From Bradyrhizobium quebecense (GTDB lineage Bacteria > Pseudomonadota > Alphaproteobacteria > Rhizobiales > Xanthobacteraceae), in assembly GCF_013373795.3 (NCBI RefSeq), contig NZ_CP088022.1, forward strand, positions 4,836,001-4,900,000: 64,000 nt of DNA, in the 5' to 3' direction. A program made the translations under genes and the position numbers. Each line of letters opens with the position of its first letter. Position 1 is the first letter of the stretch. Shown piece by piece: positions 33,686 to 57,257 of the stretch. Below the pieces are notes generated by a model. The model had not been told where the DNA came from. It did not search any database and saw nothing but the letters and a program-made list of their open reading frames with translations.

Positions 33686-33696
33686 GGCTTCTCTCC

Positions 33697-38571: not shown

Positions 38572-38638
38572 GCTGATTTTTTCGGCCGGAAGACCGCTGA
38601 TCCTCTCTTCAGAGCATGTTTATGGGCGAGGCAATGCC

Positions 38639-38666: not shown

Positions 38667-38681
38667 CCGCGATCGTCGAGC

Positions 38682-39845: not shown

Positions 39846-39935
39846 CTTTCCTCCTGTGCTCGCATGAGCCGTGCCTAGGGAACGAAACACCAGTGCAGCG
39901 CGCCAGCTTATGGGTGCCGGCCATTCGTCACCGCC

Positions 39936-39954
39936 AGGATGATCCTATCATCCT
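39936..39954. promoter_or_regulatory. Palindromic operator candidate upstream of livK, distal copy
   Basis: AGGATGAT-CCT-ATCATCCT, perfect arms. It contains TCCTATCAT (39943-39951), the reverse of the ATGATAGGA core also found upstream of the pxpA-like gene. Confidence 0.65.
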
Positions 39955-39960
39955 ATTCTT

Positions 39961-39977
39961 AGTATCTTAAAGATACT
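39961..39977. promoter_or_regulatory. Palindromic operator candidate upstream of livK, proximal to the first
   Basis: AGTATCTT-A-AAGATACT, perfect 8-base arms, centre 24 bases from the centre of the neighbouring palindrome. AT-rich in a GC-rich context. Confidence 0.6.
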
Positions 39978-40122: not shown

Positions 40123-41613
<1,491 letters not shown>

Positions 41614-41655
41614 TTCCAATCATCCCTGTTAATCTCACGGCCTCGCCCGGGTCCT

Positions 41656-44061
41656 TTAGCACCCCGCGGATCGCATGCCCGTGCTGGTCTGCCGCTCATG
41701 GACCGCGTCAAATGAACGCTGCCTCCGAACGTCATCCGCGACGCCATACGTCGTCGTGCGCTGACGCGGCACACGGCCTGCCGAAATGATGATCGATTCG
41801 AGCGCCTGCGGCGTCATTTCCTGGCCGTGCGAGGCGCCGGCCGACCGCGAGATGCTCTCATCCATCAGCGTACCGCCGAGGTCGTTGACACCGGCCGAAA
41901 GGCAGTGCCGCAGCCCCTCTGGTCCCATCTTGACCCAGGACGCCTGGATATTGGTGATGTGCGGGTTGAGGACGAGGCGCGACACCGCATGCATCAGGAC
42001 CGCCTCGCGGAATGTCGGGCCCGGTCGTGCCCGGCCCTTGAGATAGACCGGCGCTTCCATGTGAACGAACGGCAGCGGCACGAGTTCGGTAAATCCGCCG
42101 GTCTCCGCCTGCAAGCGCCGCAGCCGGAGCAGATGCCGCGCCCAATGGTCGTACCGCTCGATATGGCCGAACATGATGGTGGCCGTCGATCGGAGCCCGA
42201 TCGAGTGCGCCGTGCGCATGACGTCGAGCCACTGCTGGGTCCTGATCTTGTCGGCGCAGAGCGTCTCGCGCACCTCGTCGTCGAGGATCTCGGCGGCCGT
42301 TCCGGGCAGGGTGCCCAAGCCGGCCGCTTTCAGCTCCTGCAAGAATTCGGCAACCGAAATGCCAAGCGTGTGCGCGCCTTGATGGATCTCGAGCGGCGAG
42401 AACGCATGGAGGTGCATGGACGGGACGGCGCCCTTCACGGCCCGACAAACATCCAGGTACTTCTGCCCCGTATAGGAAGGATGGATGCCGCCCTGCATGC
42501 ACACTTCGGAGGCGCCACGGTCCCAGGCCTCGGTGACCCGCTGCGCGACTTCCGACATTTCGAGGTCGTAGGGCCGCCCGCGCAGATTCTCGCTCATCTT
42601 GCCCTTCGAGAAGGCGCAGAACTGGCATTTGAAGGAACAGATGTTGGTGTAGTTGATATTGCGGCATACGACGTAGGACACCACGTCGCCGTTGACGCTG
42701 CTCCGCAATTCGTCGGCCGACCGGCAAATGCTGGTAAAGTCGCGCTCGTGAGCGCGGAACAGCCTGACGATCTCGCCCTCCGAAAGCTCATCGCCGCGCT
42801 GGGCCTTGGCAATGACGGATGTGACCTCGCTGCCGTGTGCGGTGCGCGGAGCGGATTTCAACCATCCGAGTTCGCGCGATGGAAGCCCGCCGATGTGGCC
42901 GGGGTGCCAGTCGTCGGTGCGCGGAAATCCGTCCCCATCGATGCGATCGAGGACCGACTTCAGCAGCCTGTTGTCGAGCCAGCGCGAGGGATAGCGTGCG
43001 AAGCTCGGATAGATCGGCAGCCGCTTCTCGAGCCGCTTGCCGGTTGACCGCGTTGCAGCCTCCAGGAGCCGCAGATGCGGCCACGGTGCTTCGGGATTGA
43101 CGTGGTCCGGCGTGACAGGCGACACGCCGCCCCAATCGTTGATCCCTGCCGCAACGACGCGCCCCAGGGCGGCCGGACTGAGGTTCGGCGGCGCCTGAAT
43201 GTTCATCTCCGGCTCGAATATCAGGCGGGCGACAGCAATGGTCCAGAGATGATCGTCCACGGATGGCGCCGGCGCATTGGCCATGCGCGTCCCAACCTTC
43301 GGCCGGAAGTTCTGGACGATGATCTCCTGCAGATGCCCATGCGCATCGTTCAGGTCCCGCAGCGCGAGCAATGCATCGATCCGTTCGGCCCTGGTCTCCC
43401 CGATGCCGATCAGGATTCCGGATGTGAACGGAATGGCCTGCTCACCGGCAGTCTTGATCGTCTGAAGCCTGACGGCGGGCACCTTGTCCGGCGATCCGAA
43501 GTGGGGGCCGCCCTTCGCGCAAAGCCGATCGGACGCGGACTCCAGCATGATCCCCTGCGAGACCGATACCTTGCGCAGCATGGCCAGGTCGAGCTGGCTC
43601 ATGATCCCGGGATTGACGTGAGGGAGCAGGCCAGTTTGCTCGAACACAGCCCCGGCGACTTCGGCGAGATACGAGAGCGAGGATTCGTGGCCGAGCCTTG
43701 TCAGCTCCTCACGCGCGACGCGGTAGCGAAGCTCGGGCTTGTCGCCGAGCGTAAACAGCGCCTCATGACAGCCGGCCTCCCTGCCGGCCCTGGCGATGGA
43801 GACCGCTTCCTCGATCGAGAGATACGGCTTGACGTTCGAACGCGGCGCGTGGGCGAACGTGCAGTAGTGACAGACATCGCGGCAAAGCTGGGTAAGCGGG
43901 ATGAACACCTTCGGCGAATAGGTGATGACGTCGCCATGCGCGGCATCCCTTCGCCTGGCGGCTACCGTCAGGAGTTGGTCGATGTCAGCAAGATCTATCA
44001 GCTCGTAGGCTTCGCTTCGGCACAGGCGACGGTCGAACGGGAGATTTAAGACGGACGTCAT
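41656..44061 (-). CDS. cofGH: 7,8-didemethyl-8-hydroxy-5-deazariboflavin (FO) synthase, CofG-CofH fusion
   Basis: 801 residues, two radical-SAM domains in the actinobacterial FbiC order. CofG half: iron-sulfur Cys in QLCRDVCHYCTFA (Cys60, 64, 67), FTLGDKPELRY, and ILIGIGETRAERIDALLALRDL. CofH half (from ~400): VCRNINYTNICSFKCQFCAFSKG (Cys475, 479, 482), EVCMQGGIHPSYTG, GTLPGTAAEILDDEVR, GHIERYDHW, and NDLGGTLMDESISRSAGA. Together they join a tyrosine-derived hydroxybenzyl group to 5-amino-6-ribitylaminouracil to make FO, the deazaflavin of F420. The start overlaps the cofC stop by one base. A ~40-residue basic tail extends past the usual end. Confidence 0.96.
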   Translation of the reverse strand: MTSVLNLPFDRRLCRSEAYELIDLADIDQLLTVAARRRDAAHGDVITYSPKVFIPLTQLCRDVCHYCTFAHAPRSNVKPYLSIEEAVSIARAGREAGCHEALFTLGDKPELRYRVAREELTRLGHESSLSYLAEVAGAVFEQTGLLPHVNPGIMSQLDLAMLRKVSVSQGIMLESASDRLCAKGGPHFGSPDKVPAVRLQTIKTAGEQAIPFTSGILIGIGETRAERIDALLALRDLNDAHGHLQEIIVQNFRPKVGTRMANAPAPSVDDHLWTIAVARLIFEPEMNIQAPPNLSPAALGRVVAAGINDWGGVSPVTPDHVNPEAPWPHLRLLEAATRSTGKRLEKRLPIYPSFARYPSRWLDNRLLKSVLDRIDGDGFPRTDDWHPGHIGGLPSRELGWLKSAPRTAHGSEVTSVIAKAQRGDELSEGEIVRLFRAHERDFTSICRSADELRSSVNGDVVSYVVCRNINYTNICSFKCQFCAFSKGKMSENLRGRPYDLEMSEVAQRVTEAWDRGASEVCMQGGIHPSYTGQKYLDVCRAVKGAVPSMHLHAFSPLEIHQGAHTLGISVAEFLQELKAAGLGTLPGTAAEILDDEVRETLCADKIRTQQWLDVMRTAHSIGLRSTATIMFGHIERYDHWARHLLRLRRLQAETGGFTELVPLPFVHMEAPVYLKGRARPGPTFREAVLMHAVSRLVLNPHITNIQASWVKMGPEGLRHCLSAGVNDLGGTLMDESISRSAGASHGQEMTPQALESIIISAGRVPRQRTTTYGVADDVRRQRSFDAVHERQTSTGMRSAGC

Positions 44062-44753
44062 CAGAACAGCCTCACGGGAACGGGATGGTCGTCGATGCCG
44101 AAGCGCTCGGCAATTCTGAGCTCATCAAGAAACGAACCTGTCGTTCCGAGGTTTTGCGACGAGATCAGATATGGACCAAAATCGATTGGGCAGTCGATGT
44201 CCTTGCCGATGCCATGCGACTTGAACACGCTGCAGCTCAATTGCCGCTGCCGCGCCAGGGCGCGGTGCGCGCGAAAGCTGTCTTCGCCAAATCGAGGCTC
44301 CAGCATGTCGGGCGATCGCATCGCCAGAGCATTTGTGCCACCGTCGTAAAGCGCGGGTACGAGCACGATCGGCGTGTGGTCCAGTAACCGGATGACGTGT
44401 TCGAAGTCCTCCGGCCGGGCGAACGGAATATCGGCGGGCACGACAAGAACCCGCCGCCCGTACGGTTGCAACGCATCGAGGCCACGCTGTACCGCGGCAT
44501 TAACGCCGGTCTCGACCTCGTCGAAGATCATGGCCGCGCCGAAGCGCTTGGCGATCGCAAAGGCTTCCGGATCGGCGCTCACCACGGCGATGCCGGCCAG
44601 CGAGCGCGTATCCCGCAGGTTTCCGAGAACATCGCACAGCATGGCTTGCGCCAGTTTTGCGCGCTCGGTCGCCACCAGGATGTCGCCCAGCCTGCTCTTT
44701 GCTTGACTGAACCGTTTGACAGGCACCAGGGCCCAGGTTTCCGAATCGTCCAT
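44061..44753 (-). CDS. cofC: 2-phospho-L-lactate (or PEP/3-phosphoglycerate) guanylyltransferase CofC/FbiD
   Basis: 230 residues. A nucleotidyltransferase fold begins WALVPVKRFSQAKSRLGDIL (P-V-K-x-x-x-x-A-K-S-R-L is the family signature). VLVVPADIPFARPEDFEHVI carries the metal-binding D-x-P variant, and YDGGTNALAMRSP and GEDSFRAH follow as in CofC. It activates the three-carbon phospho-acid with GTP for transfer to FO by CofD. Which acid (phospholactate, PEP or 3-PG) cannot be read here. Eight bases after cofD. Confidence 0.93.
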   Translation of the reverse strand: MDDSETWALVPVKRFSQAKSRLGDILVATERAKLAQAMLCDVLGNLRDTRSLAGIAVVSADPEAFAIAKRFGAAMIFDEVETGVNAAVQRGLDALQPYGRRVLVVPADIPFARPEDFEHVIRLLDHTPIVLVPALYDGGTNALAMRSPDMLEPRFGEDSFRAHRALARQRQLSCSVFKSHGIGKDIDCPIDFGPYLISSQNLGTTGSFLDELRIAERFGIDDHPVPVRLF

Positions 44754-44761
44754 CGCTTCGC

Positions 44762-45700
44762 TCAGCCGTTTAGTCGATCAAGAAATCCGAGACACTGCCG
44801 TGCCAGCTCAACGCGCTCATCCTTCGAGTGCATGATCGTGTTCGTCACATGCACGGGAATGCCGATCGCATCGGCGGCGGCCTGGTCTTCGCGATCCATC
44901 ACCAGACCATCGAGAAAGCCATAGTGCCTGACAATCGAGGCGCAGTTGGTCGCGACGCCAAGCTCGTTCATGATCTTTGCGGTCGGCCCCTTGATGGCGC
45001 GGCCGCCGACCAGCGGCGAGATTGCAACGATGGGAGCCTTCGCCGCGTCCAAGGCTGCCCGGATACCGGGTACAGCCAGGATCGGATCGATGCTGAGATA
45101 CGGGTTCGACGGACAGACAATGACAGCATCGGCAACGCCGATGGCCCGCAATGCGGCGCTGGTCGCCGTTCCACCGCTGGGGCTCTGGAATTCGATCTTC
45201 CGCACTTCGGGCCGCGCCTGCAGATCGACGAAATAGCGTTGAAACGCGAGCTTCTGATCGGCCGTCACGACGATCGTCGCAAACGGATCGTCGGTCATCG
45301 GCAGGATGCTCGCCTCAATGCCGAGATGCGATGCAATCCTGCCCGTGAAATCGGTCAAGGTCACGCCGGCGCTCAGCGCGCGCGAGCGCAGGACGTGCAT
45401 GGCAAGATCGCGGTCTCCCAAACGAAACCATGTCTCGCCCTTCAGGCCGCCGAGCGCCTCCATGAAATTCCAGCTTTCGCCGGCTCGCCCCCAGCCACGC
45501 TCTTCGTCGGCAAGCTCGCCCAGCGTATAAACGACCGTGTCGATGTCCGGCGAGATCGTGAGACCGAGATGCTCGAAGTCGTCGCCCGTGTTGACGATGA
45601 CGGCGAGCTTGGCGCCCAGCAGGCGATTGAGGCCATAGGCAAGCTTGGCGCCTCCGACTCCGCCGCAAAGCGCAACAACGTTGAGGTCAGCGCCACTCAT
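44762..45700 (-). CDS. cofD: 2-phospho-L-lactate transferase CofD (FbiA)
   Basis: 312 residues. NVVALCGGVGGAKLAYGLNRLL and IVNTGDDFEHLGLTISPDIDTVVYTLGELAD are the canonical N-terminal motifs. GGLKGETWFRLGDRDLAMHVLRS, PMTDDPFATIV and IVCPSNPYLSIDPILAVPGI also match, as does the end SPLVGGRAIKGPTAKIMNELG. Transfers the phospho-acyl group to FO giving F420-0 or dehydro-F420-0. It overlaps the cofE stop by four bases. Confidence 0.95.
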   Translation of the reverse strand: MSGADLNVVALCGGVGGAKLAYGLNRLLGAKLAVIVNTGDDFEHLGLTISPDIDTVVYTLGELADEERGWGRAGESWNFMEALGGLKGETWFRLGDRDLAMHVLRSRALSAGVTLTDFTGRIASHLGIEASILPMTDDPFATIVVTADQKLAFQRYFVDLQARPEVRKIEFQSPSGGTATSAALRAIGVADAVIVCPSNPYLSIDPILAVPGIRAALDAAKAPIVAISPLVGGRAIKGPTAKIMNELGVATNCASIVRHYGFLDGLVMDREDQAAADAIGIPVHVTNTIMHSKDERVELARQCLGFLDRLNG

Positions 45701-46470
45701 CGGAACATGTCCTGGCTCTTGGGTCGCGCGAGCGCGGCCGCGGGTGAGACCGCTCCATCAAACGTGAGACCACGGACGAGGATGATCGGCATCCCCTCGC
45801 CCGCTTGCCCCATCAGGAGCGACGCCGCGCCGGCGATCTCGTCGGCGATGGCGATTTCAGTGACGCGCATGGCCCGGCCGAACATGTCGGGGACGCCGAT
45901 CTGGCTCAACAGCGAGGGAATGCCGGCGGCGCCGATCGCCACGCCGACGACACCATTGCGCCAGGGACGGCCAAAACTGTCGTTGATGATGATGCCAAGA
46001 TTGAGGTCGCCGGCGGCGTCCAGCGCGACCTTCAGCCTCTGCGCTGATCCGTCGGGATCTTCGGGCAGCAGCAGGACACGCTCTTCGCCTTCACAGTGCT
46101 CGATGTTCGATTGATCGATGCCGGCGTTGGCCATGACGAAGCCGAGCCGGTGCGCGGCGATGACGACGTTCGGCCGCGTCTTGACGACTTCGGTGGATTC
46201 GCGCAGCACGACCTCGAGGAAGCGCGGATCCTTGCCGACCGTCGCCGCGAGTTCGAGCGCCGCCGGGGAAGGCTCGGCGTCGCTCAGGCGAACGTACCGC
46301 CCTTCCGATTTCGAGACGATTTTCTGCGCAATGACGAGGATGTCGCCCCGCTGCAGCTCGAGAGACATCCCGGCCAGGCTCTGGCCGATGAGCGCGGCAA
46401 GATCCTCGCCCGGCTCAACGCGCCGAATGTCCTGCAGGGCGATGTATTCGACTCGCGTCCCCACAGGCAT
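45697..46470 (-). CDS. cofE: F420-0:gamma-glutamyl ligase CofE (FbiB N-domain type)
   Basis: 257 residues, i.e. CofE alone without the nitroreductase-like C-terminal domain that mycobacterial FbiB has. GEDLAALIGQSL and RGDILVIAQKIVSKSEGRYV near the start, and NLGIIINDSFGRPWRNGVVGVAIGAAGIP and ADEIAGAASLLMGQAGEGMPIILVRGL later, are diagnostic. Adds gamma-linked glutamates to F420-0 using GTP. If the pathway uses PEP, a dehydro-F420 reductase is needed; none is fused here. Three bases after the NPDR-like gene. Confidence 0.95.
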   Translation of the reverse strand: MPVGTRVEYIALQDIRRVEPGEDLAALIGQSLAGMSLELQRGDILVIAQKIVSKSEGRYVRLSDAEPSPAALELAATVGKDPRFLEVVLRESTEVVKTRPNVVIAAHRLGFVMANAGIDQSNIEHCEGEERVLLLPEDPDGSAQRLKVALDAAGDLNLGIIINDSFGRPWRNGVVGVAIGAAGIPSLLSQIGVPDMFGRAMRVTEIAIADEIAGAASLLMGQAGEGMPIILVRGLTFDGAVSPAAALARPKSQDMFR

Positions 46471-46473
46471 GGA

Positions 46474-47133
46474 TCAGGTACCCGGGCCAGCGGACAGGCC
46501 GGTGATGCGGATGCCGGCGCCCGGCACCTTGTAGCGCCGATTGATCCCGATCAGCACGGATGTCAGCGCCTCGGCCGCCGCCGAGTTCGCCAGCACGCCG
46601 CCGTCGATGCCTGCGGATGCAACTTCATTCGCGAGATCGATGACGACATCGCGCGACGCCTTGTCGTCGCCAAAGACCAGAACGTCGCAATCCGCCCGGC
46701 TGCCCTGGTGCAGCTTGGTCGCGCCCACATTGTGGAAGGCGGAGACGACCCGCACGCCGGGTCCGAGCAACTGCTGCGCGATCTGCGCGGCCGAACCGGC
46801 GGACGGAAGCTGCACGACAGACACTTTCGGCGGCACCAGCGGGACCGCGGCATCCACGACGATCTTGCCTTGAACCATGTCCTTGACTTCGTTCAGCGTC
46901 GCGTCATGGCTCGCGAACGGCACGGCAACGACCACGATGTCGGCAGCCCGGGCGGCGGCGGAATTGTCGTCGCCCGCGACGTCGCCGGTCATGGTCTGGG
47001 CCACGCTCTTGGCCTTCTCCGCGGAGCGTGAACCGAGAATGACTTTGTAACCGGCCGCAAGCCAGCATTTCGCGAGGCCGGATCCCAAGTCACCGGTTCC
47101 TCCAAGGATGGCAATCGTTGGTTTCGTGTTCAT
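46474..47133 (-). CDS. NADPH-dependent F420 reductase-like protein (Fno/NPDR)
   Basis: 219 residues. A Rossmann start IAILGGTGDLGSGLAKCWLAAGYKVILGSRSAEKAKS contains a GSRS loop that fits NADP phosphate binding. VVVAVPFASHDATL, VRVVSAFHNVGATKL and the end GAGIRITGLSAGPGT match F420:NADP+ oxidoreductases. It interconverts NADPH/F420 and NADP+/F420H2 in the cytoplasm, so it would supply F420H2 to the LLM enzyme at 56277. Its position between cofE and the pxpA-like gene strongly supports this. Alternative: dehydrogenase acting on another deazaflavin. Confidence 0.88.
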   Translation of the reverse strand: MNTKPTIAILGGTGDLGSGLAKCWLAAGYKVILGSRSAEKAKSVAQTMTGDVAGDDNSAAARAADIVVVAVPFASHDATLNEVKDMVQGKIVVDAAVPLVPPKVSVVQLPSAGSAAQIAQQLLGPGVRVVSAFHNVGATKLHQGSRADCDVLVFGDDKASRDVVIDLANEVASAGIDGGVLANSAAAEALTSVLIGINRRYKVPGAGIRITGLSAGPGT

Positions 47134-47154
47134 GTCTCGGTGGCCTTTCCGGGA

Positions 47155-47931
47155 TTAGTCGAGGGGCATTTCGGTGAGCGGCACGAGCTTGACGCCGGCC
47201 TTCTCGAGGCCCTCCCGCACCGCACGGGCCGTGGCGACGCCGGTGGGCTCGTCGCCATGGACGCACAGCGAGTGGACCTTGCATTTGATCTTCTTGCCGT
47301 TGCGGGAGGTGATGGTGTTGTTCAACACCATGTCGAGCACCTGCCGGGTGGCGACCGCCGCATCCTTGATGACCGAGCCCGCGATCTTGCGCGATGTCAG
47401 ATTGCCGTCGTCATCGTACTGGCGATCGCAGAAGCCTTCGATCGCGACGGGAAGTCCGAGCTTGCGGCCGGCCTTCTCCATCTCGGACCCCGCAAGAGCC
47501 ACATAGATGATGCGCGGATCGACGGCCTTGATGGCGCGGCCGATGGCGAGCGCGTATTCGGCGTCTTCGGCGGCCATGTTGTTGAGCGCGCCGTGCGGCT
47601 TGAGGTGGGTGACCCGCTCGCCTTCGTAGGCCGCCATCGCCTGCAGCGCGCCAATCTGGTAGGCGACCATGTACTCGAGGTCGTCGGGCCGCATATCGAT
47701 GCGCCTGCGCCCGAAGCCCCAGAGATCGTTGAAACCGGGATGGGCACCGATCGTGACGCCGAGGCGCTTGGCTTCGCGCACGACGTTGCGCATCACCCGC
47801 GGGTCACCGGCGTGAAAGCCGCAGGCGATATTGGCCGATCCGATGATCTTGAGGATTCCGGCATCGTCACCGACGTCGTAGGCGCCGAACCCTTCGGCCA
47901 TGTCGGCGTTCAAGTTGATCGATATGGTCAT
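47155..47931 (-). CDS. LamB/YcsF family protein (5-oxoprolinase subunit A-like)
   Basis: 258 residues. NLNADMAEGFGAYDVGDD, SANIACGFHAGDPRVM, TIGAHPGFND and THLKPHGALNN are the four classic motifs. PxpA acts with PxpB/PxpC in ATP-dependent opening of 5-oxoproline; neither partner is encoded in the window. It is first gene of the F420 operon, 21 bases before the F420 reductase, so it may open another lactam or cyclic imide made in this pathway. A related family member acts on the aspergillus lactam gene cluster. Divergent from the lyase gene at 48188, with operator-like elements between. Confidence 0.88.
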   Translation of the reverse strand: MTISINLNADMAEGFGAYDVGDDAGILKIIGSANIACGFHAGDPRVMRNVVREAKRLGVTIGAHPGFNDLWGFGRRRIDMRPDDLEYMVAYQIGALQAMAAYEGERVTHLKPHGALNNMAAEDAEYALAIGRAIKAVDPRIIYVALAGSEMEKAGRKLGLPVAIEGFCDRQYDDDGNLTSRKIAGSVIKDAAVATRQVLDMVLNNTITSRNGKKIKCKVHSLCVHGDEPTGVATARAVREGLEKAGVKLVPLTEMPLD

Positions 47932-47958
47932 CCGTCACCTCGTCTGCTTGAGCCATAA

Positions 47959-47979
47959 TGTCCTATCATTAGTACGACA
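47959..47979. promoter_or_regulatory. Operator candidate upstream of the pxpA/F420 operon
   Basis: Near-palindrome TGTC-nTA...TAn-GACA containing TCCTATCAT. On the minus strand bases 47977-47963 read TCGTACTAATGATAG, 14 of 15 identical to 59058-59072 upstream of the CoA-transferase operon. It lies about 30 bases before the start. Confidence 0.65.
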
Positions 47980-48071
47980 ATCCCTTTCGCAAGAAATTTT
48001 TCCCGGTTTTCCGAAATACCGTTTTGGAGCGACGACAGCAGGCGGCTGTCTCACGAGATCCGTATTGAACC

Positions 48072-48089
48072 ATCATCCCAATGATAGTA
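48072..48089. promoter_or_regulatory. Operator candidate upstream of the ammonia-lyase gene
   Basis: ATCAT-CCCA-ATGAT palindrome followed by AGTA, giving the core ATGATAGTA (48081-48089) also present at 50272-50280. Located 99 bases before ATG 48188. Confidence 0.6.
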
Positions 48090-48187
48090 TGTATCTCCAA
48101 TCCTGGCAAGCTACGCTGCCCGATGACAACGCGTTCGATCAGCGGCGGCGGCTCCCACCAAACAACTCATCGCGAAGGCCGGTTCGA

Positions 48188-49375
48188 ATGTTCCTGTCGA
48201 ATACAAGTTCATCTCACGACCAATCGCTCGACCCGGCGGATGCCGCCACGCTGGCGCGTGAAGAAGCGAGCGAAGTCGAGCGCTTTCTCGCCTTCCGACC
48301 GAACCACGCGGAAACGCCGCTGCGATCGCTGCCGGCGCTCGCCCGCGAATTCGAGGTGAAGTCCATCCATATCAAGGACGAATCGCATCGGCTCGGCCTC
48401 GGCAGCTTCAAGGCTCTGGGCGGATCCTACGCCGTCGTCAGGCTACTGCTGGAGCATGCCAGCAACAAGCTGGGCCGCGCGGTGGATATCAGCGAGGTCG
48501 GGACGCCTGCGATACGCGAGATCGCGCGCAGCCTGACGGTCGGATGCGCCACCGACGGAAATCATGGGCGATCGGTCGCGGCCGGCGCGCAGATGGTCGG
48601 AGCCAAGGCGGTTATCTTCGTGCATTCCGGGGTCACGGATGAGCGCGTGCAGGCGATTGCCCGCTTCGGCGCGGAAATCGTGCGGGTGCCCGGCACCTAC
48701 GACGACTCCGTCGCGGTCGCCGACAAGGTCTGCCAGGACAATGATTGGATCGTCGTCTCGGATACATCCTGGCCCGGCTATGAGCGCATCCCCGGACTGG
48801 TCATGCAGGGCTATACGGCGATGCTGAACGAGATCCTCCGGCAGCAGCCGGAGGCGCCCACCCACGTCTTCATCCAGGCCGGCGTCGGCGGCCTCGCGGC
48901 CGCGGTCGCCGGTTACTTTGATGTCGTCTTTGGCAAGAGCCGGCCGACATTCGTGGTCGTCGAACCCGAACGGGCTGCGTGCCTCTATCAAAGCGCCATT
49001 GCGGGCGCGCCGATCAAGATCGCCCATGGCGAGCCGACGATCATGGCGATGCTGGAATGCTACGAGCCTTCTCTGGTTGCCTGGCGCATCCTGTCGCGGA
49101 AGGCGGACGCATTCATGATGGTCGGCGAAGAAGGTGCTGCGGCAGCGATGCGCCGCCTCGCGCACCCGACAGGCGATGATCCAGCCATTGTGGCCGGCGA
49201 AAGTGGCGCAGCTGGATTGGCCGGCCTTTGGCGCGCCGCCAAGAGCAGCGCCGCGCGTGAATCGCTGGGCTTGAACCAGGCGTCGCGCGTCCTGCTGATC
49301 AACACTGAAGGTGCGACCGACCAGAAGCGCTACACGGAAATCGTGGGCGCTTCGCCGGCCAACATCCTCGCCTAG
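48188..49375 (+). CDS. Diaminopropionate ammonia-lyase-like PLP enzyme
   Basis: 395 residues, matching the family length. IHIKDESHRLGLGSFKALGGSYAV supplies the PLP Lys (Lys75), CATDGNHGRSVAAGAQMVG is the substrate loop, and IQAGVGGLAAAVAGYF is the phosphate loop. The end RVLLINTEGATDQKRYTEIVG is typical of DAL. The family splits 2,3-diaminopropionate into pyruvate and two ammonia, and some members act on other beta-substituted alanines. ATG 48188 has GAAGG 9 bases before. Divergent from the F420 operon with shared operator-like sites. A long palindrome overlaps its stop. Confidence 0.87.
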   Translation: MFLSNTSSSHDQSLDPADAATLAREEASEVERFLAFRPNHAETPLRSLPALAREFEVKSIHIKDESHRLGLGSFKALGGSYAVVRLLLEHASNKLGRAVDISEVGTPAIREIARSLTVGCATDGNHGRSVAAGAQMVGAKAVIFVHSGVTDERVQAIARFGAEIVRVPGTYDDSVAVADKVCQDNDWIVVSDTSWPGYERIPGLVMQGYTAMLNEILRQQPEAPTHVFIQAGVGGLAAAVAGYFDVVFGKSRPTFVVVEPERAACLYQSAIAGAPIKIAHGEPTIMAMLECYEPSLVAWRILSRKADAFMMVGEEGAAAAMRRLAHPTGDDPAIVAGESGAAGLAGLWRAAKSSAARESLGLNQASRVLLINTEGATDQKRYTEIVGASPANILA

Positions 49376-49415
49376 AGCATTTTCGGTTCTGATTACATCA
49401 GAACCGAAGCTCTAG
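49372..49415. repeat. Long palindromic repeat at the end of the lyase gene
   Basis: Outer arms CTAGAGC (49372-49378) and GCTCTAG (49409-49415); inner arms TTCGGTTCTGAT (49382-49393) and exact complement (49397-49408). A second pair, GCGTTTTC (49430-49437) and GAAAACGC (49466-49473), follows. The first pair starts within the stop codon region. Similar elements are dispersed in rhizobial genomes (recollection); here it may end both converging transcripts. Confidence 0.75.
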
Positions 49416-49514
49416 ATTCTTGTTTCGACGCGTTTTCTTCACGCGAACCGGTGGCCACTTCGCTCGAAAACGCTCCAGCGCGGCCGCGGAGCGGGCCTTG
49501 CGCCCGCTCCTTCG

Positions 49515-50273
49515 TCAGGCCTTCGTTCGCTTCTTCGATTTTTCAAGAAGATCGGAGCGGAGCGCGAAGCAACTGCGATGATAGTGGATGTTGGCGACAT
49601 AGACGGCGATGTCGTTGCTGTCGACCAGCACCAGGCGACAATCGGCGGTTGGTTCGCCGAGGCCGATCTTGAGCAGTTCGGCCGTTTCGGGATCGGCCAC
49701 GCCGATCGTCACAACCTGATGAGCATGGGCGAGCGTTATGTCGTCCATCTCCATGATTTTCGTCAGCGCGGCCGTGTGGGTGAAGCGCTTGCGGTCCTTG
49801 AGGTAGAGGTTGCGCGCCAGATGGAGGTTGACGACCGAAAACGGCTCATCCTCGTTGTATTGCACGCTTCTGAGAAACGCGTAGCTGGCGGCGGGCCGGC
49901 CTTCATGCGCGGCGAGCCGGGGCGGATCCGCATTTTCCTCGACATAGACGCGCTTGAGGACGTTGTTCCTGACGGAATCGACCATCGACTCGAAATCATT
50001 GGCCAGGTTCAGCCAGTGACGATTCCTGGGTCTTCCGGACACGAACGTCCCGCGTCCCTGCTGCGCGTCGAGGAGCCCCTCGTTCCGCAACATCTCGATC
50101 GCCTGCCGGATCGTAACACGCGCGACGCCGAATTCGGTTTCGAGCTCCTCGATGGTCGAGATCTTGTCGCCCTCTTGCCATCGCCCGGACTCGACCCGTT
50201 GACGCATGACCGACGCAACCTGCACGTAGAGGGGAACCCGGCTGCGCTCGTAATTTGGGACTACCTTATTCAT
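49515..50273 (-). CDS. GntR-family regulator with UTRA domain (HutC subfamily)
   Basis: 252 residues from ATG 50273 (ATG 50291 is possible). Winged helix (residues ~10-75): RVPLYVQVASVMRQRVESGRWQEGDKISTIEELETEFGVARVTIRQAIEMLRNEGLLDAQQGRGTFV in pattern. A UTRA effector domain (~95-240) follows with LRSVQYNEDEPFSVVNLHLARNLY. HutC-type regulators bind small metabolites and release palindromic sites. It is downstream of the Mo-hydroxylase operon on the same strand, and a 32-base palindrome overlaps its start, suggesting autorepression. I infer it controls the catabolic/F420 regulon. Confidence 0.9.
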   Translation of the reverse strand: MNKVVPNYERSRVPLYVQVASVMRQRVESGRWQEGDKISTIEELETEFGVARVTIRQAIEMLRNEGLLDAQQGRGTFVSGRPRNRHWLNLANDFESMVDSVRNNVLKRVYVEENADPPRLAAHEGRPAASYAFLRSVQYNEDEPFSVVNLHLARNLYLKDRKRFTHTAALTKIMEMDDITLAHAHQVVTIGVADPETAELLKIGLGEPTADCRLVLVDSNDIAVYVANIHYHRSCFALRSDLLEKSKKRTKA

Positions 50274-50289
50274 GATAGTAAGATAGTCC
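50258..50289. promoter_or_regulatory. Palindrome overlapping the gntR start, likely autoregulatory operator
   Basis: GGACTACCTTA (50258-50268) against TAAGATAGTCC (50279-50289), 10 of 11 positions complementary, 10-base spacer. The right side includes the core ATGATAGTA (50272-50280). It covers ATG 50273. Confidence 0.65.
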
Positions 50290-50326
50290 ATTTCATCGCC
50301 AAAGGCGAGTTTTTATCGCCGAACAA

Positions 50327-51547: not shown

Positions 51548-52383
51548 TGCGGCCGTGCCTGCTCGATCGCGCGGCGCAGCGCGGCGACATGGGTTTGCTT
51601 GTCCAGGGGATCGACCATCCCTGCCTTCTCCAGAATCTCGTCGACGGCCCCGCCGTCGAAACTGTCGCTCGGACGCGGCGCGCGGCCGTCGCCGATCACA
51701 TTGCTTGCCTTGGCAATGACGATCGGACGGCTCTCCGTCGCGCCGATCACCGCGCGGCTGATGCCGCGATCGGGGTCGGTCATGAAGGCGCCGATCGCGT
51801 GGGCAAATTCGCCCGTCTTGCGGCAGCTCTTGTAATAGCCCCAGCGCGCCGACTTGCTCAGTCGCGGCACCATGACGCGAACGAGAACTTCGCCGGGACG
51901 CAGGTCGGCTTCGAGGGCGCCGACCATGTAGTCCTCAACGGCCACGGTCCGCTCTCCGGCCGGGCCGCGCAGCACGACTTTTGCCCCAACCGCGGCGAGG
52001 ATCGAGTGCCAGTCGGCTGACGGATCGGCATGCGTCAAGCTTCCGCCAATCGTGCCGCGATTGCGCACCGCGCGATAAGCGATGCCGTTGGCCACGGTCG
52101 GCAACGCACCGCGGGTGACGTCGGTGACGCGGAGGTCCTCGATATCGGCATGCGTGACGCAAGCCCCGATCGAGATTTCGTCCGCGCCGTCACTGAAACA
52201 ACGGAGCTCTTCGATCCCGGTGAGGTCGACGATCAGATCGGGCTGCACGAGCCTGAGGTTCAACATCGGCCCGAGCGACTGGCTCCCGGCCATCATCTTG
52301 ACGGTTCTGCTATCGTCCGCGATGAGCCTGATCACCGCGTCGACCGCATCGGGGCGCGCATAGTCGAAATTGACAGGTTTCAC
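51544..52383 (-). CDS. Mo-hydroxylase FAD-binding subunit (CoxM-like)
   Basis: 279 residues. MKPVNFDYARPDAVDAVIRLIADDS is followed by MMAGSQSLGPMLNLRLVQPDLIVDLTGI, the first FAD motif (AG-x-QS-L). VRNRGTIGGSLTHADPSADW is the second (T-I-G-G-x-x-x-x-x-D-P). A CO_deh_flav_C domain completes it. It carries electrons from the iron-sulfur subunit to an acceptor. Overlaps by four bases on both sides with its partner genes. Confidence 0.93.
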   Translation of the reverse strand: MKPVNFDYARPDAVDAVIRLIADDSRTVKMMAGSQSLGPMLNLRLVQPDLIVDLTGIEELRCFSDGADEISIGACVTHADIEDLRVTDVTRGALPTVANGIAYRAVRNRGTIGGSLTHADPSADWHSILAAVGAKVVLRGPAGERTVAVEDYMVGALEADLRPGEVLVRVMVPRLSKSARWGYYKSCRKTGEFAHAIGAFMTDPDRGISRAVIGATESRPIVIAKASNVIGDGRAPRPSDSFDGGAVDEILEKAGMVDPLDKQTHVAALRRAIEQARPQ

Positions 52384-54755
52384 GCTGGCAACCCTTCCGC
52401 CTGTTCGGGCGCCTTCTCCTTGCGGCCCTCGGCTGCGGCCCGAATGGCCTCGAGAACACGCCGCGGCGTCATTGGCGTGTGCAAGACCTGCGCACCGAGA
52501 GGCCGCAATGCGTCATTGACCGCATTGCCGATTGCTCCGGGAGGCGCAATGGCGCCGCCCTCGCCGATGCCTTTGACACCGAACTCCGTATACGGCGCCA
52601 ACGTCTCCATGTGGCCAAGCTTGGGCGCGGGCACCTCGGTCGGGCCCGGCAGCAGATAGTCGGCAAAGGTCGACGCGAGGGGCTGCCCCGACGTGTCAAA
52701 GTTCATTTCTTCATACATTGCGGTGCCGATGCCTTGCGCCAGCCCGCCATAGATTTGCCCATCGACAACCATGGGGTTGATCAGCTGGCCGCCATCTTCG
52801 ACGACCACGTAGTCGATCAGTTCGATATCGCCCAACTCCGGATCGACGGCGACCACCGCGATATGGGTCGCGTAACTGAACGTGCCGGAATCACGCGCGG
52901 GCTTGTAGCCGATGGTGACCTCCAGGCCCCTCGGATCGACAGTTGCCGGCAGATCCTGTGGCCGGCGATACCAGGTGTGCGCGATTTCATCGATCTTCAC
53001 GCTGTTCGACGGACCAACCACCGCGCCGTTCTCGAGCTTGACGTTCTCGACTTCGGTCTGCAGCAGATGCGCGCCGATGCCCTTGATGAGCTTGGCGAGT
53101 TCACGCGATGCCGTCGCAACCGCGCCACCGGACATCACCGCGCAGCGTGACCCCCAGCTGCCCGTCGAGTACGGCGTGTACTCGGTGTCGCCGTGAACCA
53201 GCTTGATGCGCGCGATGTCGATGCCAAGGATCTCGTGCGCGACCTGCGGAAGCGTAGTCTCCATGCTCTGACCGTGCGAATGCGCGCCGATGCGCAGCTC
53301 GAGGCCGCCGTCCGGGGTCATGCGGGCGGTCGCCTGTTCGTGCCCCGGAACCATCGGGATGCCCCAGCCTGCGTAGACCGACGTGCCGTGGGCGCCCTGC
53401 TCGCAATAGACTGAAAGGCCGACCCCGATCAACCGACCGTCCGGCTCGCCCTTCTTTTGGCGAGCGCGGAGGCCGGCCAGATCGATCTTTGCCAGAGCCT
53501 GCCGCAGCGATTCCGGATAATTTCCGCTGTCGAAATGCTTCTTGGTGATGTTGTCGAACGGCATCTGTTCCGGCCGCACCAGGTTCTTGAGCCTCACCTC
53601 GTACGGCTCGAGACCGCATTCGTGCGCGATCGCGTCCATCATCAGTTCGATCGCGTAGCACACGCCGGTGCGGGCAACGCCGCGATAGGGCAGAATCGGG
53701 CACTTGTTGGTCGACACCGACCAGGTGCGGCAGCGATAGGATGGGAAATCGTACGGCCCGGGCAGAATGCTGGCGATCTGCGCGGCCTCCAGGCATGCCG
53801 AAAACGGATAGGACGAGTAGGCGCCGGAATCGACCGAGGCCTCGCACTCGACACCGCGCAACTTGCCATCGCGATCGGCATAGACGGTGATGTTATAATG
53901 ATGCTCGCGGCAGTTCGCGCCCGCCGTCAAATGCTCGCGACGATCCTCGATCCAACGCACGGGATAGCCGCAGCGCATGGCGAGCCAACCCAGACAAACA
54001 TCCTCCGTCAGCACGATACCCTTGTAGCCGAAGCCGCCGCCGACATCGGGCGAGACGATGCGGATCTTCAGCTGCTCGAGATTGAGGCATTCCGACAGGC
54101 CGTTGCGCACGATGTGCGGTTGCTGATTGCCGGTATAGAGGACGAGCTGGTCCATCCGCTTGTGCCAGACCGCAACCGTGCCGCGGCCTTCCATCGGCGC
54201 CATGCTCTGCCGCGCGGTCGATATCTCGCGCGTGATCTTGATCGGAGCGTCGTAGGCCGCGTCCATGTTGATGTCGACAAACGTCTCAAGGAAGACGTTG
54301 TCACCCCACTCTTCGTGCACCAGGGCCGAGCCCGGACGCCGCGCCAGCAGCATGTCGTGCACGGCCGGCAATTCCTCGAAATCAACTTCGACCGCAGCCG
54401 CAATGTCCTCGGCTTCCGCGCGGGTATCGGCGACGCACATCGCGATCAATTCGCCGACCTGACGGACCTTCTCGAACGCGAGGATCGGCTGATCGGAAGG
54501 CTTGAAGCCCGGCAGTCCGGACACAGCGCGAATGGGACGCGTATCGGCCGCGATATCCGACGCAATGAAGACGTTGCTGCGGAGGTGCGGCGGGATACGG
54601 ATATCCTTGATCCGCGCATGTGCAACCGGACTACGGACGAACGCAACGTCGCGCATGCCGGGCAAGCGAATATCGCCGACATATTCGCCTCGTCCACGCA
54701 GAAAGCGATCATCTTCCTTTCGGGGAACGGAAGCTCCAACGCCTTGCTTTGCCAC
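52380..54755 (-). CDS. Mo-hydroxylase large (molybdopterin) subunit, xanthine dehydrogenase/CoxL family, not CO dehydrogenase
   Basis: 791 residues from GTG 54755, which has GGGGAGACGGA just before; ATG 54815 (20 codons longer) lacks a ribosome site. GVGASVPRKEDDRFLRGRGEYVGDI opens the family; GGGFGYKG, HSHGQSMETTLPQVAHEIL and the active-site Glu in FGVKGIGEGGAIAPPGAIGNAV are present. The CO-specific loop VAYRCSFR is replaced by LPYRGVARTGVC, so it is not a form-I CO dehydrogenase. Likely hydroxylates a heteroaromatic or aldehyde carbon with water. First gene of the operon; a weak inverted repeat (CTAT..ATAG) lies at 54817-54834. Confidence 0.92.
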   Translation of the reverse strand: MAKQGVGASVPRKEDDRFLRGRGEYVGDIRLPGMRDVAFVRSPVAHARIKDIRIPPHLRSNVFIASDIAADTRPIRAVSGLPGFKPSDQPILAFEKVRQVGELIAMCVADTRAEAEDIAAAVEVDFEELPAVHDMLLARRPGSALVHEEWGDNVFLETFVDINMDAAYDAPIKITREISTARQSMAPMEGRGTVAVWHKRMDQLVLYTGNQQPHIVRNGLSECLNLEQLKIRIVSPDVGGGFGYKGIVLTEDVCLGWLAMRCGYPVRWIEDRREHLTAGANCREHHYNITVYADRDGKLRGVECEASVDSGAYSSYPFSACLEAAQIASILPGPYDFPSYRCRTWSVSTNKCPILPYRGVARTGVCYAIELMMDAIAHECGLEPYEVRLKNLVRPEQMPFDNITKKHFDSGNYPESLRQALAKIDLAGLRARQKKGEPDGRLIGVGLSVYCEQGAHGTSVYAGWGIPMVPGHEQATARMTPDGGLELRIGAHSHGQSMETTLPQVAHEILGIDIARIKLVHGDTEYTPYSTGSWGSRCAVMSGGAVATASRELAKLIKGIGAHLLQTEVENVKLENGAVVGPSNSVKIDEIAHTWYRRPQDLPATVDPRGLEVTIGYKPARDSGTFSYATHIAVVAVDPELGDIELIDYVVVEDGGQLINPMVVDGQIYGGLAQGIGTAMYEEMNFDTSGQPLASTFADYLLPGPTEVPAPKLGHMETLAPYTEFGVKGIGEGGAIAPPGAIGNAVNDALRPLGAQVLHTPMTPRRVLEAIRAAAEGRKEKAPEQAEGLPA

Positions 54756-54912
54756 TCCGTCTCCCCTCTTGTCGTCCGTGTCCGGAGCGATCGACGGCTC
54801 GAACACCAAATTCATTCTATTATCGCAAAGATAGCGTCACTAGGAATGAGCGTCGAGTCTCGAGAACCCTCCCGCGCGCGACAATAGCGAGTTCGCACCA
54901 CCGACGCCGCCC

Positions 54913-54941
54913 AAAAAAGGGGCCCAAACCATGGGCCCCTT
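54913..54941 (-). terminator. Intrinsic terminator of the CoA-transferase/LLM/M20 operon
   Basis: On the minus strand AAGGGGCCCA / TGGGCCCCTT, loop of 5, followed by six U. Located 22 bases after the M20 stop. Confidence 0.9.
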
Positions 54942-54962
54942 CCCGATCGATCCGGCCCTTGA

Positions 54963-56240
54963 TTACTTGGTTGGGGCGGAATTGCACCAGTCGTGGATGC
55001 TGAGCGCCATGACCTTGATGGCCGTCAGATAATCATCGATCGACACATACTCGTCGTTCGCATGCATGACCGCCGTCGAGCCGGGTCCGAAGATCACGGT
55101 TGGCGTATTCGCGTACTTGTTCAAGAACCGCGTATCCGCGGCACCCTGGCGCCCCGAGATCGTCGGCTTCTTGCCGGTCACTTCCGTATAGACGTCGCAG
55201 ACGGTCTGCACGATTGGATGCTGGACCGGAATCTCCGAAGCCTCGGCGTCGTAGCCGACGAACTTCACCACGGGAGGATGGTCCTTCATCCAGGGATCCT
55301 GAGCCGCAACTTCGGCGATCTTCTTGACGAGGCTCTGCTTGACGCCCTCATGGTCCTCGCTCGGCACCGTACCGATCGATCCCTTCAGAACGGCGCTCGC
55401 CGGGAAGGCGCTCGGATAGTTGCCGGCCTGGAAGCTGCCGATGATGCAGGGCAAGGAGTCGATGGCGCTCGGGTAGAGCGCGTGCTTGACGTTCGTCACG
55501 CGCTCGTCTTCCAGCTCCTGCACGGCCTTCACGATCTTGTTGCCGAGCTCAATTGCGCTGATGCCAAGGTAGCGCTGCTGGATACCGGCGGGCTTGCCTT
55601 CGATGTCGATCTGGAACCAGATACGCCCGATGCAAGCCGGCTGCACGAACAGGTCGCTGGTCTCGCCGGAAATACCGGCGTCCGCCTTGTATCCGCGGAT
55701 GACGGTGTCGAGCGTGCCGTGTCCGCTGACTTCCTCGTCGATGACGATGTTGATCATGACATCGCCCTTCGGATTGAGCCCAAGCTCTTTCAAGTACTGG
55801 ACCGCGAGCACGTGGCTGGCAACGCCGCTCTTCATGTCGCACGAACCGCGGCCATAGATGCGCCCGTTCTTGATCGAAGCGGACCACGGATTGTCGCTCC
55901 ATCCCTCGCCGTTGCCGACGGGGATCACGTCGGTGTGACCGTTGAGAAGCAGCGAGCGGCCGCCGCCGGTGCCCTTCAGGGTCGCAACGATGTTGGGGCG
56001 ATTCTCATAACCGCGGTCGACCGGGCGATAGCCGGGATGCTTCTTCAGCTCGTCCCAATTGGTCTCCCACATGTCGACCTCGAGACCGACCTCGGTCAGG
56101 TAGCCGTGCATGTGCTTCTGGATCGCGGCTTCGTCGCCGGTCACGCTCGGGATCGCGACCATATCCTGGAGGAACTTGATCGCGTGATCCTTCGAAGCGT
56201 CGACCTTGTCGAGGATCGTCTTGCGTACGGAGTCAGTCAT
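54963..56240 (-). CDS. M20-family amidohydrolase/deacylase (ArgE/DapE-type)
   Basis: 425 residues. Metal ligands are visible: His in LLLNGHTDVIPVG, the bridging Asp in GRGSCDMKSGVA, Glu-Glu in IVIDEEVSGHGT, and a C-terminal His in GSTAVMHANDEYVS. The lid domain is about residues 200-320. The enzyme hydrolyses an N-acyl or carbamoyl bond. In this operon it may open a ring product or release an amino acid from an N-acyl group. Last gene, 36 bases after the LLM gene, followed by a terminator. Not the housekeeping argE/dapE by context. Confidence 0.88.
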   Translation of the reverse strand: MTDSVRKTILDKVDASKDHAIKFLQDMVAIPSVTGDEAAIQKHMHGYLTEVGLEVDMWETNWDELKKHPGYRPVDRGYENRPNIVATLKGTGGGRSLLLNGHTDVIPVGNGEGWSDNPWSASIKNGRIYGRGSCDMKSGVASHVLAVQYLKELGLNPKGDVMINIVIDEEVSGHGTLDTVIRGYKADAGISGETSDLFVQPACIGRIWFQIDIEGKPAGIQQRYLGISAIELGNKIVKAVQELEDERVTNVKHALYPSAIDSLPCIIGSFQAGNYPSAFPASAVLKGSIGTVPSEDHEGVKQSLVKKIAEVAAQDPWMKDHPPVVKFVGYDAEASEIPVQHPIVQTVCDVYTEVTGKKPTISGRQGAADTRFLNKYANTPTVIFGPGSTAVMHANDEYVSIDDYLTAIKVMALSIHDWCNSAPTK

Positions 56241-56276
56241 CTGCTTGTCGCCTGTGTTGAGCGTTTTCCGGGTTCG

Positions 56277-57230
56277 TTACTTGGCGCGCAGGCGCGGGAT
56301 GATCTCACGCGCGATGGTCTCGACCTGGTCCGCCTGATACTTGTAGGGGACGAAGATGATCTTCTGGACGCCGAGCGCGATATGCTCGCGCAGCTGGGCG
56401 ACGCACTCATCAACCGAGCCCATGATGGCGCTCTCGCGGCTGCAATCGCTGTGAGCCGGGAAATCCCACTCCTTGTTGAGCCAGTCCATCATGTCGGCTT
56501 CGACCGCCTGCCGCGATTTGCCGATCATGATCGGCAATTGCGAGGCGTTCTTCAAAGTCGACGGATCCTTGCCGCCCTCCTTGGCGAAGTTGATGATCTT
56601 GTCCCAGGACTTCTTGAAGTCGGCGGGACGATAGAAGTAGGTGAGCCAGCCATCCCCGTTCAGAGCGGCGCGCTTCAGCACGGGATCGGCGTATCCGCCG
56701 ATCAGCAGCGGAATTTGCGGCTGCGCCGGCTTCGGATACATCACCGCCTTCGAAATGTTGTGGCGCATGTATTCGCCAGTAACCGACTCTTCGGTCCACA
56801 GCCGGCGCATGATCTCAAGATTCTCATCCATGATCTTGCCGCGCTTCTCGAAGGGAATGCCGAGCGCGTCGAACTCGCGCTTGTACCATCCGGACGCCAT
56901 GCCCATGATCAGGCGGCCGTCGGACAGCTGATCCATGCTCGAGAGCTGCTTGGCGAGCGCCACCGCGTTGCGGAGCGGCAGCACCAGGATGCCGGTGCCC
57001 ATCTTGATCCGCTTCGTGCGCGCGGCAATGCCCGTCAGTGTCGTCAGGGAGTCGATGATCGGGAAGTTCGGATCGACGCCGAGAAGCATGTGATCCCAGA
57101 CCCAGACCGAATCGTAGCCGAGCTCCTCGACCCGAACGCCGTACTCGACGAGCGCCCGGGCGTTGGGCATTTCGGGATAAGCGGTGAAGTTGCGCGCGGC
57201 AATACCAAACGTGTTGGCAAGCGTGGTCAT
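56277..57230 (-). CDS. LLM-class flavin/F420-dependent oxidoreductase
   Basis: 317 residues, luciferase-like TIM barrel. VRVEELGYDSVWVWDHMLLG, LTGIAARTKRIKMGTGILVLPLRNAVALAKQLSSMDQLSDGRLIMGMASGWYKREFDALGI and PKPAQPQIPLLIGGYADPVLKRAA are typical of F420-dependent members. Cofactor cannot be proved from sequence (FMN homologs exist), but a complete F420 pathway 10 kb away and a shared upstream element make F420 likely. It would reduce or oxidise a C=C, C=N or alcohol in the pathway. ATG 57230 is used. Lies between gctB-like and the M20 gene. Confidence 0.88.
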   Translation of the reverse strand: MTTLANTFGIAARNFTAYPEMPNARALVEYGVRVEELGYDSVWVWDHMLLGVDPNFPIIDSLTTLTGIAARTKRIKMGTGILVLPLRNAVALAKQLSSMDQLSDGRLIMGMASGWYKREFDALGIPFEKRGKIMDENLEIMRRLWTEESVTGEYMRHNISKAVMYPKPAQPQIPLLIGGYADPVLKRAALNGDGWLTYFYRPADFKKSWDKIINFAKEGGKDPSTLKNASQLPIMIGKSRQAVEADMMDWLNKEWDFPAHSDCSRESAIMGSVDECVAQLREHIALGVQKIIFVPYKYQADQVETIAREIIPRLRAK

Positions 57231-57257
57231 CAATAGATCTCCGGACTTGGTGTAGCT

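Follow-up and report, generated by a model that had tools for sequence, protein, structure and literature searches.

The stretch analysed here, hereafter the window, comprises 64,000 nucleotides of Bradyrhizobium quebecense, a bacterium of soil and root nodules (contig NZ_CP088022.1, positions 4,836,001 to 4,900,000 of the forward strand). It carries a module in which a predicted coenzyme F420 biosynthesis operon stands among catabolic and transport genes. A preliminary description, made from the sequence alone, had placed this cluster at 41656..57230. The cluster is real, but that span is too short for the full module, which extends from about 35174 (importer) to 58986 (CoA-transferase subunit A), i.e. 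24 kb, possibly together with pntAB at 31927-34857. The features, in window coordinates and with the support for each assignment, are as follows (PLP, pyridoxal phosphate; Mo, molybdenum).

31927-33324, minus strand: pntB, NAD(P) transhydrogenase, adjoining the module (Pfam)
33697-34857, minus strand: pntA, NAD(P) transhydrogenase, adjoining the module (Pfam)
35174..39890, minus strand: livF, livG, livM, livH and livK, LIV-type ABC importer (Pfam and NCBIfam)
39951..39964, no strand: palindrome site (see below), 2 mismatches, 61 bp upstream of livK
40123..41619, minus strand: cysteine-synthase-like fold-type II PLP enzyme, PALP_cys (Pfam PALP; cysteine synthases in the PDB)
41656..44061, minus strand: cofGH fusion (fbiC), predicted FO synthase (NF006687, 1143 bits)
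44061..44753, minus strand: cofC, predicted guanylyltransferase (TIGR03552)
44762..45700, minus strand: cofD, predicted transferase joining FO and the phospho-acid (TIGR01819)
45697..46470, minus strand: cofE, predicted F420-0:glutamate ligase (TIGR01916)
46474..47133, minus strand: npdG, predicted NADPH:F420 reductase (TIGR01915)
47155..47931, minus strand: pxpA-like LamB/YcsF lactam hydrolase subunit (NF003814, above cut-off)
47961..47974, no strand: palindrome site, 2 mismatches, 30 bp upstream of pxpA, in the intergenic region that pxpA shares with the divergent lyase gene
48188..49375, plus strand: 2,3-diaminopropionate ammonia-lyase-like PLP enzyme (NF006058, 521 bits, above cut-off)
49515..50291, minus strand: GntR/UTRA (HutC-like) regulator (profile matches)
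50327-51547, minus strand: Mo-hydroxylase small subunit fused to CoxG (Pfam)
51544-52383, minus strand: Mo-hydroxylase flavin adenine dinucleotide (FAD) subunit (Pfam)
52380-54815, minus strand: Mo-hydroxylase Mo subunit (Pfam; best PDB match quinoline 2-oxidoreductase)
54963..56240, minus strand: M20 deacylase of the ArgE/DapE family (profile matches)
56277..57233, minus strand: LLM-class enzyme of the TIGR03619 F420-dependent family, candidate F420H2-dependent reductase
57258-58070, minus strand: glutaconate-type CoA-transferase subunit B (PDB match and alignment)
58021-58986, minus strand: coaA, glutaconate-type CoA-transferase subunit A (PDB match)
59061..59074, no strand: palindrome site, 1 mismatch, 75 bp upstream of coaA

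The genes cofGH, cofC, cofD, cofE and npdG, which had been assigned to one operon, are indeed all intact and lie on the minus strand at 41656-47133, with spacings of -4 to +8 bp from cofGH to npdG. The operon appears to continue upstream to pxpA and downstream to the cysteine-synthase-like enzyme, gaps being at most 36 bp from PALP to pxpA. By curated cut-offs and motifs, this is a complete predicted F420 biosynthesis set. CofGH and CofC exceed their NCBIfam cut-offs (1143 bits for a cut-off of 1018, and 155 for 105), as do CofD (288.5 for 257.45) and NpdG (185.3 for 149.8). CofE reaches 262.9 bits with TIGR01916 (cut-off 180.65) and falls below a second model, NF009809 (250.8 vs 274). Both CxxxCxxC radical-SAM motifs are kept in CofGH (residues 60 and 475). 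The window cofD is the sole PF01933 match in the genome, in which one copy of cofE was found; cofE copies are 94-95% identical in five Bradyrhizobium records.

The LLM gene (56277-57233) encodes a protein that scores 192 bits with TIGR03619, a family named F420-dependent (cut-off 166.9), and its AlphaFold2 model (pLDDT, the predicted local distance difference test score, 95) has the LLM fold. It lies 9.1 kb from npdG (10 kb in the preliminary description). The CoA-transferase subunits (57258-58986) flank it on one side, and on the other stands the M20 deacylase (54963-56240), which is the neighbour formerly termed an amidohydrolase.

Among the other catabolic enzymes, the Mo subunit has quinoline 2-oxidoreductase as its closest PDB entry, and no NCBIfam model reached its cut-off with any Mo-hydroxylase subunit. 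The closest PDB relative of the CoA-transferase is glutaconate CoA-transferase, in which the E of the VESG motif is catalytic; Glu68 of subunit B aligns with this residue (1poi_B), and the LFEGG motif that carries it is kept in 21/21 module CoA-transferase B sequences. The M20 protein scores under the cut-offs of the YgeY models. The lyase start was set at 48188 (the open reading frame (ORF) opens at 47900) because homologues have about 397 residues; the protein stays below the cut-off of TIGR03528 (349 bits vs 532). As regards lactam hydrolysis, PxpA alone was matched among the scanned module proteins of the window, with no match for PxpB or PxpC, and the genome's own PxpB is encoded outside the module. 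In relatives (loci and genomes are designated by L and G numbers) the G747 locus has a full PxpA, PxpB and PxpC set beside the npdG-cof genes, L072 has a HyuA/HyuB oxoprolinase immediately before npdG, and L045, L166 and L167 contain a dihydroorotase-like gene. In all, a candidate for ring opening (PxpA, PxpABC, HyuA/HyuB or dihydroorotase-like) is present in 18/29 module loci and absent from 11, three of which are incomplete. The pntAB genes lie within the module in G975, G931, G996, G826 and Sinorhizobium, where they sit between the M20 and Mo genes.

Two side observations concern integrity. In L166 (Sinorhizobium meliloti R28, pSymA), cofE and the diaminopropionate lyase gene are each split in two pieces, by sequencing error or decay. 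Elsewhere in the window, the ORFs at 14450-16849, 21304-22878 and 26059-27138 are long, lack a Pfam match and may not be genes.

Association of the cofactor genes with a single pathway

The distribution of the module was assessed in genomes sampled at several taxonomic ranks. Matches to cofE were obtained in 5/398 genomes across the phylum, including the source genome (four above cut-off), and in 44/265 Bradyrhizobium genomes (40 above cut-off). Since cofE is rare in both samples, the cof cluster is not there by chance. Orthologues of the LLM enzyme, defined by E <= 1e-60, occur in 12/265 Bradyrhizobium genomes, and all 12 carry a cof cluster of the window type (hypergeometric probability 2.9e-11 against the 40 cofE-positive genomes; 2e-4 when a near-identical clade of nine genomes is collapsed). 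In the order, 15/397 genomes have the orthologue, including the source genome; all 14 others have cofGH, cofD and npdG at the same locus and 13 of them the full set, the exception being G857, whose cofE lies 1.5 Mb away. The CofGH of G747 reads as two ORFs. Among 72,556 plasmid records, the 12 Sinorhizobium plasmids with an LLM of at least 77% identity are the same 12 that have the best CofGH, CoaA and, by identity, Mo subunit; as these come from closely related strains, they are not independent cases. Gene order and strand vary widely across loci, and the association of the LLM with the cof genes therefore survives rearrangement and inversion. Mirror-tree correlations are high (0.87 for LLM vs CofGH, 19 loci) but confounded by species descent. 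The claim that the cofactor genes are kept together with one pathway thus holds in genus, order and plasmids alike, and their linkage to it is strongly supported by the sequence comparisons.

Among hosts identified by name, the module occurs with cof genes in Pseudaminobacter, Pseudohoeflea, Sinorhizobium and a Rhodospirillales bacterium; in the latter (L072, 20.8 kb), cofD, cofE and npdG were seen, and neither cofGH nor cofC. Genomic context aside, the best 120 of 2,492 relatives of the LLM include proteins from Mesorhizobium, Nitratireductor, Chelatococcus and others.

Use of F420 by the LLM enzyme is suggested by its family assignment and by this linkage, and three observations set limits to this reading. 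The AlphaFold2 model matches luciferases and F420 enzymes equally well; the genome contains 16 LLM-family loci, so that the module pathway need not be the sole user of F420; and the 17.5 kb of L060 show no LLM next to the cof, pxpA and Mo genes present there. The first two would suit an enzyme that is instead a ring-cleaving monooxygenase dependent on flavin mononucleotide (FMN), of the RutA kind, with F420 serving another enzyme of the genome. This is improbable: the TIGR03619 match is above cut-off, no flavin reductase family was matched among the module proteins scanned, and every surveyed genome of the genus or order and every surveyed plasmid with the LLM orthologue has cof genes.

The Mo-hydroxylase and importer were also found apart from cof genes. 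None of the 12 class-level Mo loci examined (23 other genomes matched) contains cof genes, nor do three annotated plasmid stretches that carry the Mo-hydroxylase and importer. The Mo step alone therefore needs no F420. L269, L270, L271, L252 and L253 have a close Mo-hydroxylase and LIV importer (livK up to 77% identity) with no cof gene in the stretch, their neighbours being an amidohydrolase, or HpxZ and an amidase. In these loci, uptake and the initial step may be shared with the module but lead into a non-reductive route.

The preliminary description named cof genes that are present in relatives without the other genes and expressed constitutively as evidence against its proposal, and relatives with cof genes alone do exist on the face of it: 28/40 cofE-positive Bradyrhizobium genomes are without this LLM. 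They are not counted as a refutation because they hold cof clusters of other types, most of them beside other catabolic genes. Sorted by hand, nine have another Mo-hydroxylase with a Mer-like LLM and HyuA, 12 are LLM-rich and seven fall elsewhere. Moreover, the module sequences group together in a CofGH tree (71 rows, quick method, seven near-identical Bradyrhizobium rows dropped), which is a further reason not to take these genomes as a refutation. The 23 module rows form two clades (14 and 8) plus L060, and the module label requires 3 changes vs 19.7 in shuffles.

In L120-type loci (nine Bradyrhizobium genomes), the cof operon is accompanied by HyuA, a Mer-like LLM and a Mo-hydroxylase of another kind; L120 also has an S-Me-THD-like protein (PF06032) and DUF1028. 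The LLM-rich type, in which 20 kb may contain as many as eight LLM matches, was seen in 12 Bradyrhizobium genomes, in two cases on a contig of about 5 kb (L124, L128, L131, L134, L135, L137, L142-L144, L148, L164 and L165). G415, a Bradyrhizobium genome, has three separate cof sets (L132, L140 and L158) beside different catabolic genes, with cofC detected in L140 only; in the CofGH tree L132 stands apart, while L140 and L158 fall in two sister pairs. G646 has two sets (L133 and L151). In L159 (G200) and L160 (G483), on Bradyrhizobium draft contigs, the cofE matches are interrupted by stops. On the Agrobacterium rubi plasmid pW2_73_1 (L273), the order cofD-cofC-cofGH-gabT-cofE-npdG is accompanied by an LLM gene and by PxpA-, PxpB- and PxpC-like genes; gabT encodes a gamma-aminobutyrate transaminase (class III aminotransferase), and genes of the biotin-carboxylase type adjoin. 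Finally, in L102, L112, L115, L117, L119 and L163 (hosts: Colwellia, Marinomonas, Hyphomicrobiales and Bradyrhizobium), cofG and cofH are separate matches and occur with cofD, cofC, cofE, npdG, a Mer-like LLM and hydantoinase-like and M20 carbamoylase-like genes, which possibly serve a reductive pyrimidine degradation in which F420 replaces dihydropyrimidine dehydrogenase. By its gene content the module reads as oxidation, reduction, opening and splitting of a ring, and the same logic recurs in the nine L120-type genomes, on the A. rubi plasmid and in the Colwellia/Marinomonas type.

A common palindrome upstream of cofactor, catabolic and transport genes

A scan of 47100-59700 for sigma-70 promoters and terminators stayed at chance level (2 sites vs 2.6, and 7 vs 8.9). 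An 11-base word recurs in the intergenic DNA upstream of pxpA and of coaA, and across relatives it resolves into the palindrome TACTAA-NN-TTAGTA. This pattern was counted in 29 module loci (835 kb; the near-identical Bradyrhizobium loci L145, L149 and L150 were left out) and in 49 control loci (1011 kb) made up of cof clusters of other types, clusters with Mo genes only, and plasmid regions. When up to one mismatch was allowed, module loci gave 26 sites (18 loci) vs none in controls; with up to two, 52 (25 loci) vs 6 (6 loci); with up to three, 113 vs 73. When the module loci were simulated five times with a Markov model, 0-1 and 1-2 sites appeared at the first two thresholds. Since the pattern was derived from the same module loci, the control counts carry more weight than the raw number.

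Of the 52 sites with two mismatches or fewer, 49 are located in the 260 bp upstream of a module gene, and no site falls within one. Sorted by downstream gene, with a site between divergent genes counted for both, they precede pxpA (11), PALP (10), the diaminopropionate lyase gene (10), npdG (8), livK (8), M20 (5), coaA (4), moL (2), cofGH (1) and livH (1). In 16/29 loci, six of which are close Bradyrhizobium kin, the cofactor operon and a catabolic or transport gene are both preceded by a site; by hand count this is due to separate sites in 14 and to one shared divergent region in L123 and G704. The 9.17-Mb source genome has 14 sites with at most two mismatches, three of them in the 24-kb module; read backwards, the pattern gives 128 sites per strand. 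Three of the other 11 sites were viewed: two have no module-like genes nearby, and the third (one mismatch) closely follows the 3' end of an ORF judged porin-like by eye, 43 kb beyond the end of the window.

The presence of one palindrome before cofactor, catabolic and transport operons suggests shared control, and its reader would be the GntR protein of the module. In five loci, an Lrp/AsnC-like gene (identified by eye) is also nearby. The proposal that F420 is made on demand thereby gains support at the level of the DNA sequence. The cofactor genes are likely to be dedicated to the module and regulated jointly with it.

The palindrome also bears on the question whether the cof and catabolic genes are mere neighbours on an island, F420 being a general cofactor. 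An accessory, patchy distribution and the location of the Sinorhizobium copies on megaplasmids are what an island would give. Linkage that persists through inversions and reordering, the 16 loci with the palindrome on both sides of the functional divide, and a genome with three separate cof sets are not, and mere neighbourhood on an island is accordingly very improbable.

A candidate pathway and its relation to known systems

Taken together, these data are best accounted for by a self-contained, jointly regulated F420 catabolic cassette for an N-heteroaromatic compound, a reading to which I assign a probability of about 0.6. The genes, their linkage and the shared palindrome come directly from the sequence, whereas the reductive direction and the order of the steps are what I infer from them: the former because Pnt, NpdG and the LLM enzyme stand together, and the ring opening because of PxpA here and its replacements in relatives. 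The LIV-type importer would bring in an N-heteroaromatic acid or amino acid, and the Mo-hydroxylase would oxidise a ring carbon beside nitrogen to give a lactam. CofGH, CofC, CofD and CofE would produce F420 on site, which Pnt and NpdG would charge by passing electrons from NADH to NADPH and on to F420H2. With this donor, the LLM enzyme would reduce the ring, which would thereby lose its aromaticity. Opening of the lactam would fall to PxpA (or, in relatives, to PxpABC, the HyuA/HyuB oxoprolinase or the dihydroorotase-like enzyme) and cleavage of the remaining amide to the M20 enzyme. The PLP lyases would turn the diamino-acid fragment into ammonia and a keto acid, and the carboxylate would be activated by the glutaconate-type CoA-transferase. 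The GntR protein would switch the cofactor, catabolic and transport operons via TACTAA-NN-TTAGTA. The CoA-transferase genes adjoin the LLM gene in loci that cover both, a position for which the proposed pathway gives no reason.

The electrons could also flow the other way, the LLM enzyme being an F420-dependent dehydrogenase like Adf or Fgd, with NpdG and Pnt shedding electrons as NADPH and NADH. Fgd and Adf are among the close structural kin of the LLM model, and NpdG and Pnt are reversible in principle. Yet the Mo-hydroxylase already performs an oxidation, Pnt normally supplies NADPH, and hydrolases of the lactam or hydantoin type recur beside F420-LLM genes in other clusters, which makes the oxidative direction unlikely. 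Reductive N-heterocycle catabolism is the best reading, as a working hypothesis.

With regard to the substrate, the hydrolases suit a ring that yields a lactam resembling 5-oxoproline. Both the 5-oxoprolinase-type hydrolases and the diaminopropionate lyase would be accounted for by a five-membered ring with two nitrogens, as in a route from imidazole-4-carboxylate via 2-oxoimidazolidine-4-carboxylate to diaminopropionate; 2-imidazolidone-4-carboxylate, a term not found among the literature matches listed, resembles 5-oxoproline. Pyrrole-2-carboxylate, picolinate and nicotinate are further candidates, none of which explains both the oxoprolinase-type hydrolases and the lyase. Urate was rejected, there being no match for SsnA, HyuA (PF01979) or YgeW (PF00185) among the module proteins scanned.

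A wider proposal is more tentative, and I consider it somewhat less probable than its opposite. Aerobic rhizobia and their relatives would restrict F420 synthesis to times when a particular N-heteroaromatic acid is available, F420H2 being the low-potential donor that dearomatises it, in an oxygen-tolerant counterpart of anaerobic ring reduction that travels as a transferable cassette and brings along the genes for the cofactor. Cassettes of this sort would exist in several unrelated forms, some genomes having two or three cof sets, one per pathway. The suggested principle is that the one pathway in need of a cofactor is packaged with the genes for its synthesis and controls them. The cassette reading would explain why some rhizobia make F420 at all. 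The observation made in the preliminary description is confirmed in this work; its interpretation is supported in part and extended.

Among known systems, the picrate degradation cluster of actinobacteria combines npdG with F420-dependent hydride transferases that reduce the nitroaromatic ring. NpdG and, in the pathway proposed here, the F420-dependent reduction of an aromatic ring are common to both systems; the picrate cluster differs in its nitroaromatic substrate and is not known to contain cof genes.

The reductive uric acid pathway involves XdhD, YgfK, SsnA, HyuA, YgeW, YgeY and YgeX, and in a variant proposed for Chloroflexota a putative F420-dependent LLM replaces YgfK (PMC12507026). 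The Mo-hydroxylase, M20 and diaminopropionate ammonia-lyase families are alike, as are the reduction of an N-heterocycle and the hydrolytic ring opening proposed here. By contrast, the present module has PxpA, a glutaconate-type CoA-transferase and a LIV importer, and its hosts are alphaproteobacterial.

The view that F420 is best known from archaea and actinobacteria, adopted in the preliminary description, is dated: production in trace amounts has been shown for two Alphaproteobacteria (PMC8498797). The FbiC fusion, CofC, CofD, CofE and NpdG families of bacterial F420 biosynthesis are those encountered here. In this 2021 review, the reason why Proteobacteria synthesise F420 is an open question; the present data link the genes to a single catabolic module. 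The module makes the question testable, since it names a likely F420 user, a likely regulator and an operator-like sequence.

The open-licence literature matches listed contain no study that assigns a function or pathway to the module. The module has nevertheless very probably been encountered before. A k-mer association study of 2021 in S. meliloti tied a 26-kb pSymA region, present among the study strains only in GR4, KH35c and KH46, to single-nodule occupancy and nodulation competitiveness (PMC8407117). Its hit list comprises fbi genes, a Liv transporter, PyrC, PntAB, a Mo-hydroxylase, GctAB, M20, a diaminopropionate lyase, GntR and an LLM. The same gene families are thus found in both, and the S. 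meliloti GR4 record carries the module LLM, CofGH, CoaA and Mo subunit. GR4 is a model host in which such a region is already associated with nodulation competitiveness, and that study states that the part of F420 in competition deserves attention. There, the region consists of association hits with no assigned pathway; here it takes the form of a conserved module with a shared palindrome and a wider distribution.

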